Assembly: GCA_001803565.1 (NCBI GenBank)
Contig: MHDQ01000225.1
Location: forward strand, 1-10,955
Length of the DNA stretch: 10,955 nt
Origin: Nitrospinae bacterium RIFCSPLOWO2_12_FULL_45_22
GTDB taxonomy: Bacteria > 2-12-FULL-45-22
Reading direction: 5' to 3'
In this document: positions 1 through 10,878 of the stretch, one piece after another
Position numbering within the stretch: position 1 is the first letter of the stretch
Layout: the number at the start of each line of letters is the position of its first letter
Program-made: the position numbers and the translations under genes
Notes under the pieces: model-generated
The model's database searches: none
What the model was told of the DNA's origin: nothing
What the model saw: only the letters and a program-made list of their open reading frames with translations

Positions 1-3000
1 TAGCATGGCTCCAGCAATAGTTCCGGGCATACAGGTGAAGGGCATAACCAGGATGAGACCGCTGGCACCCTGGTAGATAAAATCCATGGCCCGGCCCAGA
101 CTCAGGACCGCCTCGGTGCCGCAGCTATGGTGGAGGTACTTATCAGAATATTTTAGAATTAATTCTATTTCTGGCTCTTCTATATGAGTTGAGTAGCTTT
201 TAAATAGGCCAGAAATCTTCTTCTCGTCCCGCTTCTGGAAATATCGCTTAAGGTATGCCCGCAAAAATCCTTTATAGTCACCCCTCTCCCAGCTATCACG
301 CTCCAGCCAATGGCTGACAAACATTATCCACTCCTGGGTAGTAGCCTGCCATACCTCCCCACCTAGCTCTTCGATCCTGGCTATGAGATAATTATTGCTG
401 AAGGGATGGGAGCGAAGATAAATTTCACCTACAATGCCAATGATAGGTTTTTTCTTGCCCCGGTCTAAAGGAATCTGGCCATATATGGGCAATATCTCTT
501 CCAGCGTGGCGGAGAGCCGATGTTCTATTACCCCCTGGGCAAGGGTTTTTAACCCATCTCTATAAACTTGATTTAGATGCTCCTTATCTAAGGCATAAGG
601 CCGGTAAGCGTGGTATAGTTTCTCAAGAGACTCAAAGGCCACGATGGCTTGCCAGGCCGTGCGAGAAAAGCCGGGGGGGAATTTGGCCAGCTCATTATAG
701 TACCCGTTAGCACTGCCCTGGTTAGGGCTGATAAAGGGGATATTGCCATAGCCTAGTTGCTGGAAGATCTGCTTATGGCGGTGGAAATAGAGTCCAAAAC
801 GGCATGGCCCATCGGATGTAGGCATGAAAAATGCACTTGTCTCGGGATCGAAGCTGCCTTCCTGGAGCTTCTTCAAGAAATCACCCAGGGTAATAATAAA
901 AGGGAGACATTCTTTACCGATAGCATGTTTTTTCCCTAACTCCAGGGATTCATCGTCTGAGACCGGCAATACCTGAGCATCTATGCCATGGGCCTTAAAG
1001 GCCGCTTCTAAGGCATAAGAGCCATCGCCCATATAGGGTATGAAGATGGTCTGCGGAAAAGGGGCAGACTTTAATTGTCGGGGATCAGTTGTCAGGGATC
1101 GGGGGTCGGGGGTGGGGGATCGGGGATCAGAGAAGAGTCTTACCTCTAATATCTCATCTTTGACCTCTGCCCCCTGACTTCTGACCCCTGGCCCCTGATC
1201 CCTGATCCCTGATCCCCGCTTATTCCATCCTGCTTTGCTCCAGAGCTGCTCAATGCTGTCCAGGAAAGCCTCACAGCGGGTTATTAAGCCAGCATCAGCG
1301 CTGTGTTCATCTAACTCGATTAGCAACAAGGGATAATCGGGTAGTTCCTTTTTGAAAAACCCTATCAGGAAAGAGTCAGGTCCGCACCCAAAGTTAGTAA
1401 GATAGAGGGGATACAGGGCTTTACCCATCTCTTTCCATTGACGGATGTGTTGAGCCGCCTGGATAATCCGTTGGCCATAACGCCAATACATATTGAGATC
1501 AGTAGCTTCTGACGGGCTAAAGCCCGGGGGTTCCTGGGCCAGGAGATAATCTAGTGGAATAGCTAGAATACCCATATTTTTTAGCTTGTTTACTATACCC
1601 AGGTTTATCCCAGGGTCACAGCCGTTATAAGGACGGCTTATTATGACAAGGGCCTTATCTGCAGACTGGAGGTCAGCCAGGGCTTTCTGTCCGCGCTCCC
1701 TTACGGCATCATAGAAGGCTTGCTGGGCGCTTAATGCGGCATCAATAGCCTTTTTAATCTCTCCCGTGGAGCGGTTAAGTTCCTTGCCCATTTCTATTAA
1801 GGCCCCTTGCCAGTGCTTCGCTCCCCACTGAAAATTTAATCTGGGCGACAGGAGCTTTCCTTTGCCGGTAAAGTCCTGGTTTTTGATGAAAGAGTCCACC
1901 ATATAGGGTAATGCCGGTATATACGGACAGGTCTGGTTCTTTTTCGGGCAGTGAATATCACCAAAATCAGGGTAATGGAGGAGGCTGGGGAGGAAGATAA
2001 AATCCAGGTCTTGCTTCAGTAGATGGATAATATGGCCGAAGGCTACTTTTACAGGGAAACAGGTCTCAGCCAGGGAATATTCGGTAGCAAAGTTTATGCT
2101 CTTCTGGTTTGTGGTAGGGGATAGAACTGTTTCGCAACGCAGATAGGAGAAAAAAGCCAGCCAAAAGGGCAGGAACTCATGGAAATGCAATATGCGGGGT
2201 ATACCAATTTTTAGAGAGTTTTCTCTCCCCGGTACTAAGCCCATAGGGGGTGAGACAAAGTTAGAGAGGAGTAAACTTTCTCTTTCCTGGAACAAATTAG
2301 GCAATGACTGACCCAGCTTCTTCTCATCTCCTACTTCATAACGTTCGCAGCGGGCACCATAGAAGAGGGGCTTCTCCTGGCCAAACTGTATTTTGTTTAT
2401 TTCGCATTGGTTTTCACAGGCTGAGCAATGGAAATTCTCTACCTGATAGGGCCGCTGGCTCAGGTCAAACCCTTTAAACCGTGAAGCTCCTCCGGGGCCC
2501 ATTTCTTTGGCCAGGATAGCCATCCCAATAGCCCCGGTAACATCATGATGGGGCGGGACGATAACCTCCTGGCCTAATACTTTGCTAAAGGCCGCTACTA
2601 CTCCCTGGTTAGAGGCAACCCCTCCCTGGAAAAAGACCTTTTCACCTATTCTCCGCTCCCCTACTACCCGGTGCAAATAATTATAGACAATGGAATAACT
2701 CAGACCCGCTACCAGCCCTTGAAAGTCTGCCCCTTTGCACTGATTAGCCACCAGATCGGATTCCATAAAGACCGTACAGCGATCACCCAGGCGGCAGGGG
2801 CTCTCGGCCATGAGGGCCAGGTTACCAAACTGATCTACGATATCTATCCCTAATCTCTCTGCTTGTTCCTCTAAGAATGAGCCTGTGCCGGCTGCACAGA
2901 CCTTATTCATCTCAAAATCCACTATTATGCCTCTATCCAGGCTAATATATTTAGAGTCCTGACCACCGATCTCAAAGATAGTATCTACGCCGGGATCAAT

Positions 3001-4269
3001 ATGGATAGCTGCGGTGGCCTGGGCTGTGATCTCATTCTTTATCAGGTCTGCCCCTACAAACTGGGCCGTGAGGTACCTGCCAGATCCGGTAGTGCCTGCG
3101 CCGAGCACCTTCACCTGAGGGCCAAGCTCCTCGCCTATCTCTTTAAGCCCTTGTTTAACCGCTTCTAATGGTTTACCGGCAGTCTTCAAATAGCGCCGGG
3201 CCAATACCTGACCATCTTCATCTATAGCTACCACATTAGTGCTTAACGACCCTACATCTATCCCTACATATACCCCTTTTTGTACAGTTGGTTCTGGGAG
3301 GATATTGCGGATGGTGGTGGTTCTCTTTTCCGAATAACCGCTTCCTGAAAGGGAGTGGAGGGTCTTTATCTCTGGTTTTTGTTGGGCCATAATGCCTCTT
3401 AGCGAATCCAGAGCCAATATAGCGGGGTCAATCCTCTCGCCTTGCTCCATACTTATCAGTGCCGCACCAACCGCCCCTATGGTAGCATAATGTTTGGGAA
3501 TTATGAATTCTCCCTGGCTTAGCTCAAGGGTATCTTCAAATGCCCTGACCATCCCGGCATTAGCTGCTACTCCCCCCAGGAAGGCGATAGGTTTCTGGAA
3601 CTTTTTCCCTTTACCTAGAGTGCTTTTAAAATTCCTGGCTACGGCATAACATAAACCTGAGACAATATCGGCAGTGGTGGTACCGATTTGCTGGAGGTGT
3701 ATCATATCTGACTTGGCAAAGACCGAACAACGTCCTGCAATACGGGGCGGGTTGGTACATTTCAGGGCTTCAGCACCAAATTCACCTTCGATATCGAGCC
3801 CGAGCCGGAGGGCTTGTTGGTCTAAAAAAGAGCCAGTACCTGCGGCACAAATAGTATTCATAGAGAAGTCTTTAATTATAATATGCCCTGAAAGGTCATC
3901 CTGTTCCAGAAAGATCAGCTTGGAGTCTTCCCCCCCCATTTCAATGACCGAACGTACCTCTGGATGGAACAATTCTATGCCCCGTGTCTGGGCAATGACC
4001 TCATTAATTAAATCCTTCCCTAATAGGTCTGCCAGCCGCTGTCCCCCGGAGCCGGTAATTCCAATATTGATAATCTGGGCAGGTAATAACGGCTGACTCT
4101 GACTAAAAATTTCCTCCAGACATTCATAGAATATTTCCATCGGCTGTCCCCTAAACCGCCGGTAACACTCGATCACTACCTGCTTATCCTGATCCAGGGC
4201 GATTATCTTTATGCTAATAGAGCCTATATCAATCCCGAGAAACAATGGGAGCTTCTCTTCTCTTTTCAC
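1..4269 (-). CDS. Double acyl-CoA dehydratase activase / DUF2229 / HgdB-like fusion, cut at the window edge
   Basis: At least 1423 residues; the 3' end lies outside the window. Two activase (BadF/BadG/HgdC, ASKHA-type ATPase) domains lie in tandem. The first, about residues 9-275, has the phosphate loop LGIDIGS, GGEDSK at 112-117, Cys141 in CAAGTGSF, Cys181 in GRCSVF, and GGVAAN. The second, about 332-590, has GIDVGS, GGQDSK at 435-440, Cys458, Cys498 and GGVASN. In HgdC the equivalent two cysteines per subunit hold the [4Fe-4S] cluster at the dimer interface, so this chain could form that dimer internally (inference). A CxxCxxxC motif (C615, C618, C622) plus C641 follows. A DUF2229-type region starts near 686 (IGIPRILHFHEF, CFPVK at 737) and leads into HgdB-like segments with CGPDSF (C962), GKECLP and GPCRFG. 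GTG 4269 is the first possible start after an in-frame TGA at 4278; a purine-rich AAGGGGGG lies 10 bases upstream. The family couples ATP hydrolysis to low-potential electron transfer. The substrate here is unknown, and no separate dehydratase subunits are visible. Residues about 1018-1067 are encoded by a palindromic repeat insertion without a stop or frame shift. Confidence 0.9.
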   Translation of the reverse strand, partial: MKREEKLPLFLGIDIGSISIKIIALDQDKQVVIECYRRFRGQPMEIFYECLEEIFSQSQPLLPAQIINIGITGSGGQRLADLLGKDLINEVIAQTRGIELFHPEVRSVIEMGGEDSKLIFLEQDDLSGHIIIKDFSMNTICAAGTGSFLDQQALRLGLDIEGEFGAEALKCTNPPRIAGRCSVFAKSDMIHLQQIGTTTADIVSGLCYAVARNFKSTLGKGKKFQKPIAFLGGVAANAGMVRAFEDTLELSQGEFIIPKHYATIGAVGAALISMEQGERIDPAILALDSLRGIMAQQKPEIKTLHSLSGSGYSEKRTTTIRNILPEPTVQKGVYVGIDVGSLSTNVVAIDEDGQVLARRYLKTAGKPLEAVKQGLKEIGEELGPQVKVLGAGTTGSGRYLTAQFVGADLIKNEITAQATAAIHIDPGVDTIFEIGGQDSKYISLDRGIIVDFEMNKVCAAGTGSFLEEQAERLGIDIVDQFGNLALMAESPCRLGDRCTVFMESDLVANQCKGADFQGLVAGLSYSIVYNYLHRVVGERRIGEKVFFQGGVASNQGVVAAFSKVLGQEVIVPPHHDVTGAIGMAILAKEMGPGGASRFKGFDLSQRPYQVENFHCSACENQCEINKIQFGQEKPLFYGARCERYEVGDEKKLGQSLPNLFQERESLLLSNFVSPPMGLVPGRENSLKIGIPRILHFHEFLPFWLAFFSYLRCETVLSPTTNQKSINFATEYSLAETCFPVKVAFGHIIHLLKQDLDFIFLPSLLHYPDFGDIHCPKKNQTCPYIPALPYMVDSFIKNQDFTGKGKLLSPRLNFQWGAKHWQGALIEMGKELNRSTGEIKKAIDAALSAQQAFYDAVRERGQKALADLQSADKALVIISRPYNGCDPGINLGIVNKLKNMGILAIPLDYLLAQEPPGFSPSEATDLNMYWRYGQRIIQAAQHIRQWKEMGKALYPLYLTNFGCGPDSFLIGFFKKELPDYPLLLIELDEHSADAGLITRCEAFLDSIEQLWSKAGWNKRGSGIRDQGPGVRSQGAEVKDEILEVRLFSDPRSPTPDPRSLTTDPRQLKSAPFPQTIFIPYMGDGSYALEAAFKAHGIDAQVLPVSDDESLELGKKHAIGKECLPFIITLGDFLKKLQEGSFDPETSAFFMPTSDGPCRFGLYFHRHKQIFQQLGYGNIPFISPNQGSANGYYNELAKFPPGFSRTAWQAIVAFESLEKLYHAYRPYALDKEHLNQVYRDGLKTLAQGVIEHRLSATLEEILPIYGQIPLDRGKKKPIIGIVGEIYLRSHPFSNNYLIARIEELGGEVWQATTQEWIMFVSHWLERDSWERGDYKGFLRAYLKRYFQKRDEKKISGLFKSYSTHIEEPEIELILKYSDKYLHHSCGTEAVLSLGRAMDFIYQGASGLILVMPFTCMPGTIAGAML
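1077..1216. repeat. GC-rich imperfect palindrome of 20 heptanucleotide units inside the activase gene
   Basis: Read on the minus strand from 1216, the sequence divides without a gap into twenty 7-mers. The first arm has GGGATCA three times, then GGGGCCA, GGGGTCA, GAAGTCA, GGGGGCA and GAGGTCA. The middle (about 1133-1160) is degenerate. The second arm has CTCTGAT, CCCCGAT, CCCCCAC, CCCCGAC, CCCCGAT, CCCTGAC, AACTGAT and CCCCGAC, the reverse complement of the same type of unit, so the whole can fold into a long imperfect hairpin. Seven GATC sites lie at 1083, 1097, 1118 and 1125 in one arm and 1197, 1204 and 1211 in the other, always multiples of 7 apart within an arm. The element is open in the host reading frame throughout. 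Short tandem heptanucleotide repeats are known from cyanobacteria, but I do not recognise this one by name. Tandem structure and inversion are directly visible; mobility is inference. Confidence 0.9.
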
Positions 4270-4400: not shown

Positions 4401-4469
4401 TGCAAAATGCAAAATTAGCAATTAACAACGAGGAATTAATTTTGAAATGCTAATTGCTAATTTTCTATG
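4393..4469. repeat. AT-rich imperfect palindrome in heptanucleotide phase
   Basis: The plus strand divides into 7-mers: ATAGACA, ATGCAAA, ATGCAAA, ATTAGCA, ATTAACA, ACGAGGA, ATTAATT, TTGAAAT, GCTAATT, GCTAATT, TTCTATG. The two arms are inverted copies of the same unit type, with a perfect 14-bp stem (4411-4424 against 4451-4464) around a 26-base loop. The architecture is like that of the GC-rich element at 1077-1216, with heptads running one way, a degenerate middle, then heptads in reverse complement, but the unit sequence is unrelated. The stem is certain; that it belongs to the same class of element is inference. Confidence 0.7.
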
Positions 4470-5581: not shown

Positions 5582-6895
5582 TTAAGTTATATTGGCCTCA
5601 GCATCGACCACTATTAAATTAGTCTTTGCTATACCCCCCAAAAATCCTGCTCCACCATCCTGAACACACCACTGCCCTTTAATCATATGGGTACCTGCTG
5701 ATAGGCGCTGAACAGTAACAATCGTTATTGGGAGCGATTGCGTCCCCGCAGAAGTATTAGTGTAGACCCCATCTGCCACTACCTTCCCATCAATATCAAT
5801 TGCAAACCTTACCCCTACACTACCAACACTGTTCCAGGTATCTGGGGCATTCAGGATAATAAGATAGTCTTTCTCTTGATCTGGGTTTACCTCAATGGAA
5901 GAAAGATCGTTGATGTCTTCATAAGATGGATATTGGGAATCCGTATAATTGACTGCCCCGCTCCGCGAGCTCATATAAGACTTTGCCCCAGCCGGTATTT
6001 CTATAACAGATAGGGTCGTGTCAGATATTCCCCCCAAATATCCCGCTCCACCATCCTGAGTGCACCACTGTCCTTTAATTACATGGGTACCTGCTGATAG
6101 GCGTTGCAAAGTAACGATCGTTATAGGTATTTCTTGTTGCCCCGCAGAGGTATTAGTGTAGACCCCATCTGCTACTATCTGCCCATCAATATTGATGGCA
6201 AATCTAACCCCTGCAGTTGCATTACTGTTCCATGAATCCGGGGCATTTAAGATTATAAGATAATCCTTCTCTTGATCCGGGCTGACCTGAATGGGAGAAA
6301 GATCGCTGATATCTCCATAAGAAGTGTAGAAGGAATCTGTATAATTAAGCTCACCGCTCCGCGAGCTCATATAAGACTTTGCCCCAGCCGGTATTTCTAC
6401 AACAGATAGGATAGTATCAGATACCTCACCTAAATATCCTACACCACCATCCTGAACACACCATTGCCCTTTAATTACATGGGTACCTGCTGATAGGCCT
6501 TGCAAAGTAACGATCGTTATGGGGATTCCCTGCTGTCCCGCAGAGGTATTAGTGTAGACCCCATCTGCTACTATCTGCCCATCAATATTGATGGCAAATC
6601 TAACCCCTGCGGTTGCATTACTGTTCCAGGTATCCGGGGCATTTAAGACTATGAGATAGCCTTTTTCTTGGTCAGGGTTTACCTGAATAGAGGATAAATC
6701 GCTTATGTCCTCATAGGAAGGATAGATAGAAGTCGTGGAAATCAGGGCACCACTTCTGGATTTGTAATAGAACTTAAACCCCTCTGCATAACTATTTTTT
6801 ATAAAGTTTGGTAAAATTAATGTAACAAGAAGTAATGCCACAAGACCATAAAGGCCTTTTCTGCAACCAGTAGATAGTTTTAATTGTGTGGTCAT
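5582..6895 (-). CDS. Exported protein of three 132-residue tandem repeats
   Basis: 437 residues. ATG 6895 is chosen because GAGGAGG lies four bases upstream and a signal peptide follows at once: Lys/Arg-containing n-region, hydrophobic GLVALLLVTLILP, likely cleavage after SYA at 35-37. A longer frame starts at 6973 but overlaps the upstream gene and lacks these signals. The mature protein is almost entirely three copies of a 132-residue unit (about 43-174, 175-306, 307-437). Each contains RSG, DISDLS or DINDLS, PDQEK, LNAPD(T/S)WN, GVRFAI(N/D)IDG, VADGVYTNTSAG, PITIVT, LSAGTH and IKGQWC, and each has one cysteine (146, 278, 410). The many short beta-strand-like stretches suggest a beta-sandwich fold. 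I do not recognise the family. It starts 11 bases after the stop of the 1241-aa gene, so the two are co-transcribed. The reading frame continues past the TAA into a further domain. A surface adhesin, binding or structural role is inference. Confidence 0.85.
   Translation of the reverse strand: MTTQLKLSTGCRKGLYGLVALLLVTLILPNFIKNSYAEGFKFYYKSRSGALISTTSIYPSYEDISDLSSIQVNPDQEKGYLIVLNAPDTWNSNATAGVRFAINIDGQIVADGVYTNTSAGQQGIPITIVTLQGLSAGTHVIKGQWCVQDGGVGYLGEVSDTILSVVEIPAGAKSYMSSRSGELNYTDSFYTSYGDISDLSPIQVSPDQEKDYLIILNAPDSWNSNATAGVRFAINIDGQIVADGVYTNTSAGQQEIPITIVTLQRLSAGTHVIKGQWCTQDGGAGYLGGISDTTLSVIEIPAGAKSYMSSRSGAVNYTDSQYPSYEDINDLSSIEVNPDQEKDYLIILNAPDTWNSVGSVGVRFAIDIDGKVVADGVYTNTSAGTQSLPITIVTVQRLSAGTHMIKGQWCVQDGGAGFLGGIAKTNLIVVDAEANIT
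5585..6769 (-). repeat. Three tandem 396-bp coding repeats
   Basis: The units at about 6769-6374, 6373-5978 and 5977-5585 are exactly in register at 396 bp. The first two share long nearly identical stretches, for example around 6496-6620 against 6100-6225. The junction between units two and three repeats the junction between one and two almost base for base (around 6361-6398 and 5965-6002). Such similarity indicates recent duplication or ongoing gene conversion, and copy number could vary between strains. Confidence 0.9.
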
Positions 6896-10734: not shown

Positions 10735-10878
10735 TTAACTTGACATTGTCACATTATCTGAATCCATTGATACTACTACTTTAATTGTAGGCACGAGTTT
10801 TATTCGTGCTATTCAGGGGCACGGATTTATCCGTGCCTACAAAAAAGAGGGAGTTTAAATGTGACAAAGTCAAGATAA
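10735..10878. repeat. 144-bp palindromic element with 21-bp terminal inverted repeats (MITE-like)
   Basis: The left end (10735-10755) and the reverse complement of the right end (10858-10878) agree at 19 of 21 positions; both contain the block TTGTCACATT. The element encloses two GC-rich hairpins and has no coding capacity. Size, terminal inverted repeats and lack of a gene fit a miniature inverted-repeat element that depends on a transposase elsewhere. A target-site duplication is not clear: TTAA occurs at the left end and again just beyond the right end, offset. It lies 103 bases upstream of the secretion operon. Confidence 0.6.
10785..10842. repeat. Pair of related hairpins nested in a larger inverted repeat
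   Basis: Hairpin one has stem GCACGA (10791-10796) with TCGTGC (10804-10809) and a 7-base loop. Hairpin two has stem GGCACGGA (10818-10825) with TCCGTGCC (10830-10837) and a 4-base loop. The outer edges TTGTAGGCACG (10785-10795) and CGTGCCTACAA (10832-10842) also pair, so the region can fold either as two tandem hairpins or as one longer stem. The hairpins look like diverged copies of each other. Neither is followed by a T-run in its own direction, so they are not typical intrinsic terminators. Confidence 0.75.

Follow-up and report, generated by a model that had tools for sequence, protein, structure and literature searches.

The heptad array that interrupts the first gene of the window (the whole 10,955-nucleotide stretch of DNA analyzed here) is probably a passively tolerated copy of a dispersed, G-rich GGGRTCR repeat, lying in a variable linker and filtered by reading frame. 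By its defining features, the element is a G-rich convergent heptad repeat of the type described by Rehm et al., found here in a new lineage; what is new is an explanation of how heptads of this kind persist in proteins. The segment is presumably translated in the cell, and the peptide itself probably has no function.

Results

Structure of the heptad element

The preliminary description had counted twenty consecutive 7-bp units. A unit scan resolves these into two arrays on opposite strands, of seven and eight units, separated by a 31-bp gap that does not follow the heptad register (Table 1). One of the seven first-arm units is GTTGTCA, a 5/7 match to GGGRTCR. Period 7 is dominant, with an autocorrelation of 0.67 at lag 7, 0.63 at lag 14, and 0.56 at lag 21, and the 140-bp element stretch holds 13 units that match at 6/7 positions or better; none of 297 further 140-bp stretches from the window has more than 5. 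The G+C content of the stretch is 59% versus 45% for the whole window.

Table 1. Features of the host gene and its heptad element in the window
Feature	Positions	Strand	Basis or remark
Host gene	1..4269	minus	ORF; 3' end beyond window edge
DUF2229 domain, residues 687-908	1546..2211	minus	Pfam PF09989
Inserted translated segment, residues about 1018-1067	1069..1218	minus	Alignment with 79 homologues; AlphaFold2
G-rich arm, 7 GGGRTCR units, C-rich in gene sense	1081..1129	plus	Unit scan
Element middle, 31 bp without heptad register	1130..1160	no strand	Unit scores 2-5 of 7
Second arm, 8 GGGRTCR units (YGAYCCC on plus), G-rich in gene sense	1161..1216	minus	Unit scan
G-quadruplex motif (G3+N1-7)x4, first arm	1095..1118	plus	Regex scan
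G-quadruplex motif (G3+N1-7)x4, second arm	1192..1217	minus	Regex scan

The inverted arrangement described earlier is confirmed, and the arms are largely complementary (39 nt, 72%), with a stable hairpin predicted for the DNA (-42.8 kcal/mol, z -5.4); at the level of units, however, the match is no better than that of shuffled units (p = 0.41, 15 paired elements of this genome). The hairpin, stable both as DNA and as RNA (z about -5), and the quadruplex motifs on both strands could point to a selected nucleic-acid role in the host gene, such as pausing transcription or translation, and GGGNATC repeats do form quadruplexes in vitro (PMC4692102). Such a role is very unlikely, as the arms have not stayed complementary unit by unit, a regex for the quadruplex motif finds it in only 8 of 25 arrays, the genes that carry arrays are functionally unrelated, and homologues of the host do without the element.

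The window contains other repeats. Upstream of the host gene, an intergenic gap contains a second inverted repeat (positions 4411-4464), with 17-nt arms that are 94% complementary and with the period-7 traits AATGCAA and TGCTAAT. A 144-bp MITE-like element at positions 10735-10878 has 21-nt inverted ends (TTAACTTGACATTGTCACATT) and encloses GTAGGCACG...CGTGCCTAC palindromes; a similar end is present in L040. The gene for a protein with a Bc2l-C_N match includes a 396-bp coding repeat in nearly three copies (positions 5630-6726), with 83% matches.

The translated segment and its linker

The host protein matches PF01869 (BcrAD/BadFG ATPase; E 7e-77) in two stretches and DUF2229 (PF09989; E 2e-54). 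This arrangement is the architecture of 2-hydroxyacyl-CoA dehydratase activase-like proteins. The heptad peptides GSGIRDQ (residues 1019-1025), GPGVRSQ (1026-1032), SDPRSPT (1047-1053), PDPRSLT (1054-1060), and TDPRQLK (1061-1067) lie exactly where the preliminary description had placed them, and the host frame, which it had called stop-free through both arms, is indeed open and is the sole open frame of six through the element stretch. A 7-residue peptide period as a matter of design was rejected; it is arithmetic, in that 21 bp make three heptads and seven codons.

The location of the insert in a linker between DUF2229 and the segment beginning IFIPYM, previously proposed, is borne out by aligning the protein with 79 homologues that span many phyla. 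Between two fixed alignment points, the protein has 81 residues compared with a median of 38 (range 35-74), that is, about 43 residues above the median homologue. Residues 1018-1067 are missing as conserved sequence from these homologues, and the same inserted sequence was found in none of the 79. The linker of this gene is itself a length-variable site. AlphaFold2 modeling of residues 655-1423 (mean pLDDT 80, from an alignment of 34 rows) gave pLDDT values below 50 for residues 1014-1069 (model residues 360-415), so that the insert is predicted to be disordered; it lies between a well-ordered helix and a well-ordered strand.

Different repeats occur at this linker of the gene in other genomes. 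TCAGAAG heptads, translated as SEVRSQK, occupy the site in two Deltaproteobacteria (L141 and L156), and one genome has a GGGGTCATGACCCC palindrome there (L119).

Copies across the source genome

Counts for the source genome come from pattern searches and sampled sequence stretches. Three GGGRTCR units with at most two mismatches gave 63 genome matches, whereas a reversed control pattern gave none; the 63 make up two classes, class A with about 25 arrays or convergent pairs and class B, a MITE present in about 15 copies. The repeat is dispersed, and copies inside genes are a minority (7 of the 25 class-A arrays, with 18 outside). Class-A arms have 2 to 8 units, and several copies are one-armed. 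Each of the 15 pairs is convergent, with its G-rich arm leading, and the shuffled-unit test described above led us to reject the idea that the two arms are copies of each other. No flanking direct repeats of 7-12 bp were found at the 25 class-A arrays save one off-register 7-mer, and no 8-bp target duplication was found at the window copy.

Class B is a 143-171-bp MITE with GTAACAGTTCAC ends (for example L046, L063, and L070), of which three copies show perfect 8-bp duplications. We call it IS66-like because an IS66 with near-identical ends (GTAACCGTTCACCC) is present in the same genome, on contig C275. Its terminal inverted repeats carry GGGGTCA GGGATCA GTTGTCA heptads, and the first arm of the window element likewise holds GGGATCA GTTGTCA. 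The in-gene array could therefore be an eroded MITE, derived from elements whose ends have the same heptads (GTAACAGTTCACAGGGGTCAGGGATCAGTTGTCAGG), and the perfect duplications and the matching IS66 favor this origin. We nevertheless find it unlikely: the GTAACAGTTCAC ends are absent from the window copy, from the other in-gene copies, and from the class-A arrays; there are more units than in the MITE ends; and the MITE interior is missing.

A general TCRG heptad pattern gave 196 matches, class A and class B included, versus 12 in the control. TCAGCNN heptads, a third set, appear to be more abundant. Elements of this set (for example C6:4644-4772 and C300:23205-23334) have ends like TAAGCGTTCAGC and arms about 100 bp apart, and GGGRTCR heptads lie inside some of them (L044, L061, L068, and L070). 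A GTAG tag, which marks the palindromes of REP elements with their RAYT transposase, was not seen at the array; Y1_Tnp domains occur in the genome (5 matches). We discounted weak pattern matches at 17/21 positions, among them those in MetK and a cytochrome-like protein, as chance hits or native protein sequence.

Reading frames of the in-gene copies

The seven class-A arrays in genes lie in Tmk, MetG, RecD2, DnaX, an SLT protein, a glycosyltransferase, and the activase-like host, and each leaves its gene open with the frame kept on both sides. Genes are avoided by class-A arrays, since only 7/25 are in genes, against a coding share of roughly 86% in the sampled sequence (binomial p about 8e-11). 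The in-gene copies are mostly in variable loops. The Tmk insert has 12 residues that are absent from 2pbr, and the RecD2 and MetG inserts fall at segments that vary in length among genome homologues. Near the 3' end of tmk there is also a nine-unit AAGAACM array (L037, C58:4216-4278), translated as KEPRTKNQEQRTKNKEQRTK; this heptad family is expanded within Tmk and is present on only one other contig.

The two strands of the repeat differ in how they can be read. Because 7 is coprime to 3 and every 21-bp block shows all phases, the GGGRTCR strand has no stop in any of its three frames; in the C-rich sense, YGA falls in frame once per three units. None of the nine in-frame YGA positions in genes is a stop (five are CGA and four are CAA), compared with 9/19 out-of-frame positions (Fisher p 0.026) and 48/75 positions of intergenic arrays (Fisher p 2.6e-4). 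The in-frame positions of MetG are CAA and CGA, and three of the four CGA codons of the window's host gene are within or adjoin the element stretch. CAA, which is two changes away from TGA, occupies 4/9 in-frame positions versus 0/75 intergenic units (p 6.5e-5), suggesting time spent under coding constraint. The avoidance of in-frame stops is partly forced by the choice of open genes and speaks to constraint after arrival rather than to the route of arrival. Among in-gene copies of this and other genomes that are one-armed or mainly so, G-rich sense outnumbers C-rich sense by 10:1 (p 0.012).

Open frames through intergenic arrays amount to 33/108, which, with a factor of 1/3 for length, gives a landing about one chance in ten of leaving its gene readable. 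With intergenic copies taken as the measure of the landing rate, about 110 gene landings are expected and 7 (6%) remain, so passive filtering is enough and selection for entering genes is not needed. The earlier suggestion that the repeat is adapted to, or selected for, insertion into coding sequence is unsupported by these counts: copies in genes are scarce relative to the coding share, and a passive filter predicts about the fraction observed. A mobile palindromic element specialized for in-frame landing in coding sequence, like the Rickettsia palindromic elements, would account for in-frame copies in several conserved genes of one genome, for the palindromic pairs, and for the related MITEs with 8-bp duplications. 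It is an improbable explanation given the strong depletion from genes, the lack of duplications at class-A arrays, the variable number of units with several single-armed arrays, and arms that are not mutual copies.

The source assembly is a 3.67-Mb draft genome (321 contigs, 85% complete; the window is on contig C225), and repeats can misassemble. An assembly artefact or chimera is nonetheless extremely improbable, as the frame is preserved on either side of all seven in-gene arrays, their in-frame positions are depleted of stops, and the same type of array is present in other genomes.

Occurrence in other genomes

With at most one mismatch, the GGGRTCR pattern was found in 17 of 290 genomes, most of which are related to the source only at the level of domain. 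Across 8 of the 17 genomes, the in-gene hosts supported by Pfam are an inositol monophosphatase and an ABC exporter in a genome of the same order (G001), CbiD, a radical-SAM protein, and RadA in G171, Lnt in G192, and ArgS in G151; this list leaves out ORFs in L192 and L208, where several frames are open, and in L203 and L206, which have no Pfam match. The extra residues of the ArgS insert are visible against 3fnr. The alignments of CbiD and inositol monophosphatase are too weak to place the insert, and PDB alignments of DnaX, MetG, and RadA end short of it. A long match in G151 (L195) proved to be a repeat native to the protein and was dropped. Also rejected was a MetG linker in G021 (L277), which looks heptad-like as protein but shows no period 7 in its DNA. 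Heptads of the reversed control type (GGGRCTR) are themselves frequent in G001, G225, and G272 (44, 39, and 26 matches, respectively) and resemble the Nostoc repeats.

Discussion

The closest known counterparts of the window element are the G-rich heptameric repeats reported by Rehm et al. (2015), GGGNATC of Xanthomonas and GGGGA(C/T)T of Nostoc, with 70 convergent pairs in Xcc and 75 in Xac and a mostly intergenic location (7-11% in genes, about a third in Nostoc) (PMC4692102). The window arrays, too, consist of tandem 7-bp units with a G3+ tract and an ATC-type core, and (GGGATCG)n is a rotation of (GGGGATC)n. Both systems are dispersed, vary in unit number, have a minority of copies in genes, and frequently form convergent pairs, a regularity common to the arrays of this genome and those of Xanthomonas (PMC4692102). 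The unit here differs, however, in being GGGRTCR, with a final A common, and in having a C-rich strand that contains TGA, so that readability depends on orientation. The in-gene copies described above favor the G-rich sense on the coding strand, whereas Rehm et al. report the coding strand as under-represented (PMC4692102). The effect at the level of protein was not found in the abstract, the first third of the Results, or the Discussion of that paper.

Other repeat systems share some of these features. Rickettsia palindromic elements are families of about 150 bp that lie in frame in many genes, 44 of them in R. conorii (Ogata et al. 2000; PMC10969869), and as palindromic repeats that are in frame in conserved genes of one genome and absent from homologues, they resemble, at the level of protein, the element studied here. 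The heptad element does not belong with them, since it shows no concentration in genes and its length and sequence are not fixed. Enterobacterial RU-type small mobile sequences also have open frames that are fused into annotated proteins, but those are defined MITE-like units of 103-168 bp rather than heptad arrays (PMC2759123). The TAACTGA repeat of Beggiatoaceae is likewise a dispersed heptad of few lineages; unlike the repeat considered here, it forms direct repeats near start codons, is hardly ever inverted, and has stop codons in its forward sense (PMC4679880).

How the arrays arose is a separate question. The absence of duplications, the range of unit numbers with single arms, and the nearly private heptad family of Tmk favor local birth and heptad slippage, and we infer that most arrays formed in this way, without a dedicated transposase. 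A view of pure slippage is strained by the uniform layout of the 15 pairs, whose arms always converge with the G-rich one leading and yet are unmatched unit by unit, and local birth alone is insufficient to explain this convergence. It is possible that the arrays had a mobile origin with duplications that have since eroded, given that this genome also has heptad-ended MITEs flanked by 8-bp duplications.

Under our preferred explanation of passive tolerance, a heptad repeat that usually lies between genes would arrive in a linker by passive landing or local growth. The window copy would owe its survival to a linker that can take extra disordered residues, to a total length that preserves the frame, and to the lack of an in-frame stop; copies in the C-rich sense would be readable in genes through CGA or CAA in place of in-frame TGA. 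A broader and more tentative idea, which we think has a modest chance of being correct, is that heptad repeats act as frame-blind linker makers. As 7 and 3 have no common factor, a heptad strand free of stops would be readable wherever it landed or grew, and unrelated bacteria could repeatedly gain GSGIRGQ-type disordered linkers in loops of conserved enzymes, some of them functional.

For annotators, the array is a warning that a peptide repeat of this kind should not be taken as a domain. It also provides a clean, countable case of short DNA repeats entering proteins, in which one heptad strand gives rise to one peptide, GSGIRGQ, in conserved enzymes that are unrelated to each other and come from unrelated bacteria. 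The pattern of codon phases in such arrays, with CGA or CAA and no in-frame TGA, offers a handle on which segments are tolerated and which are selected.
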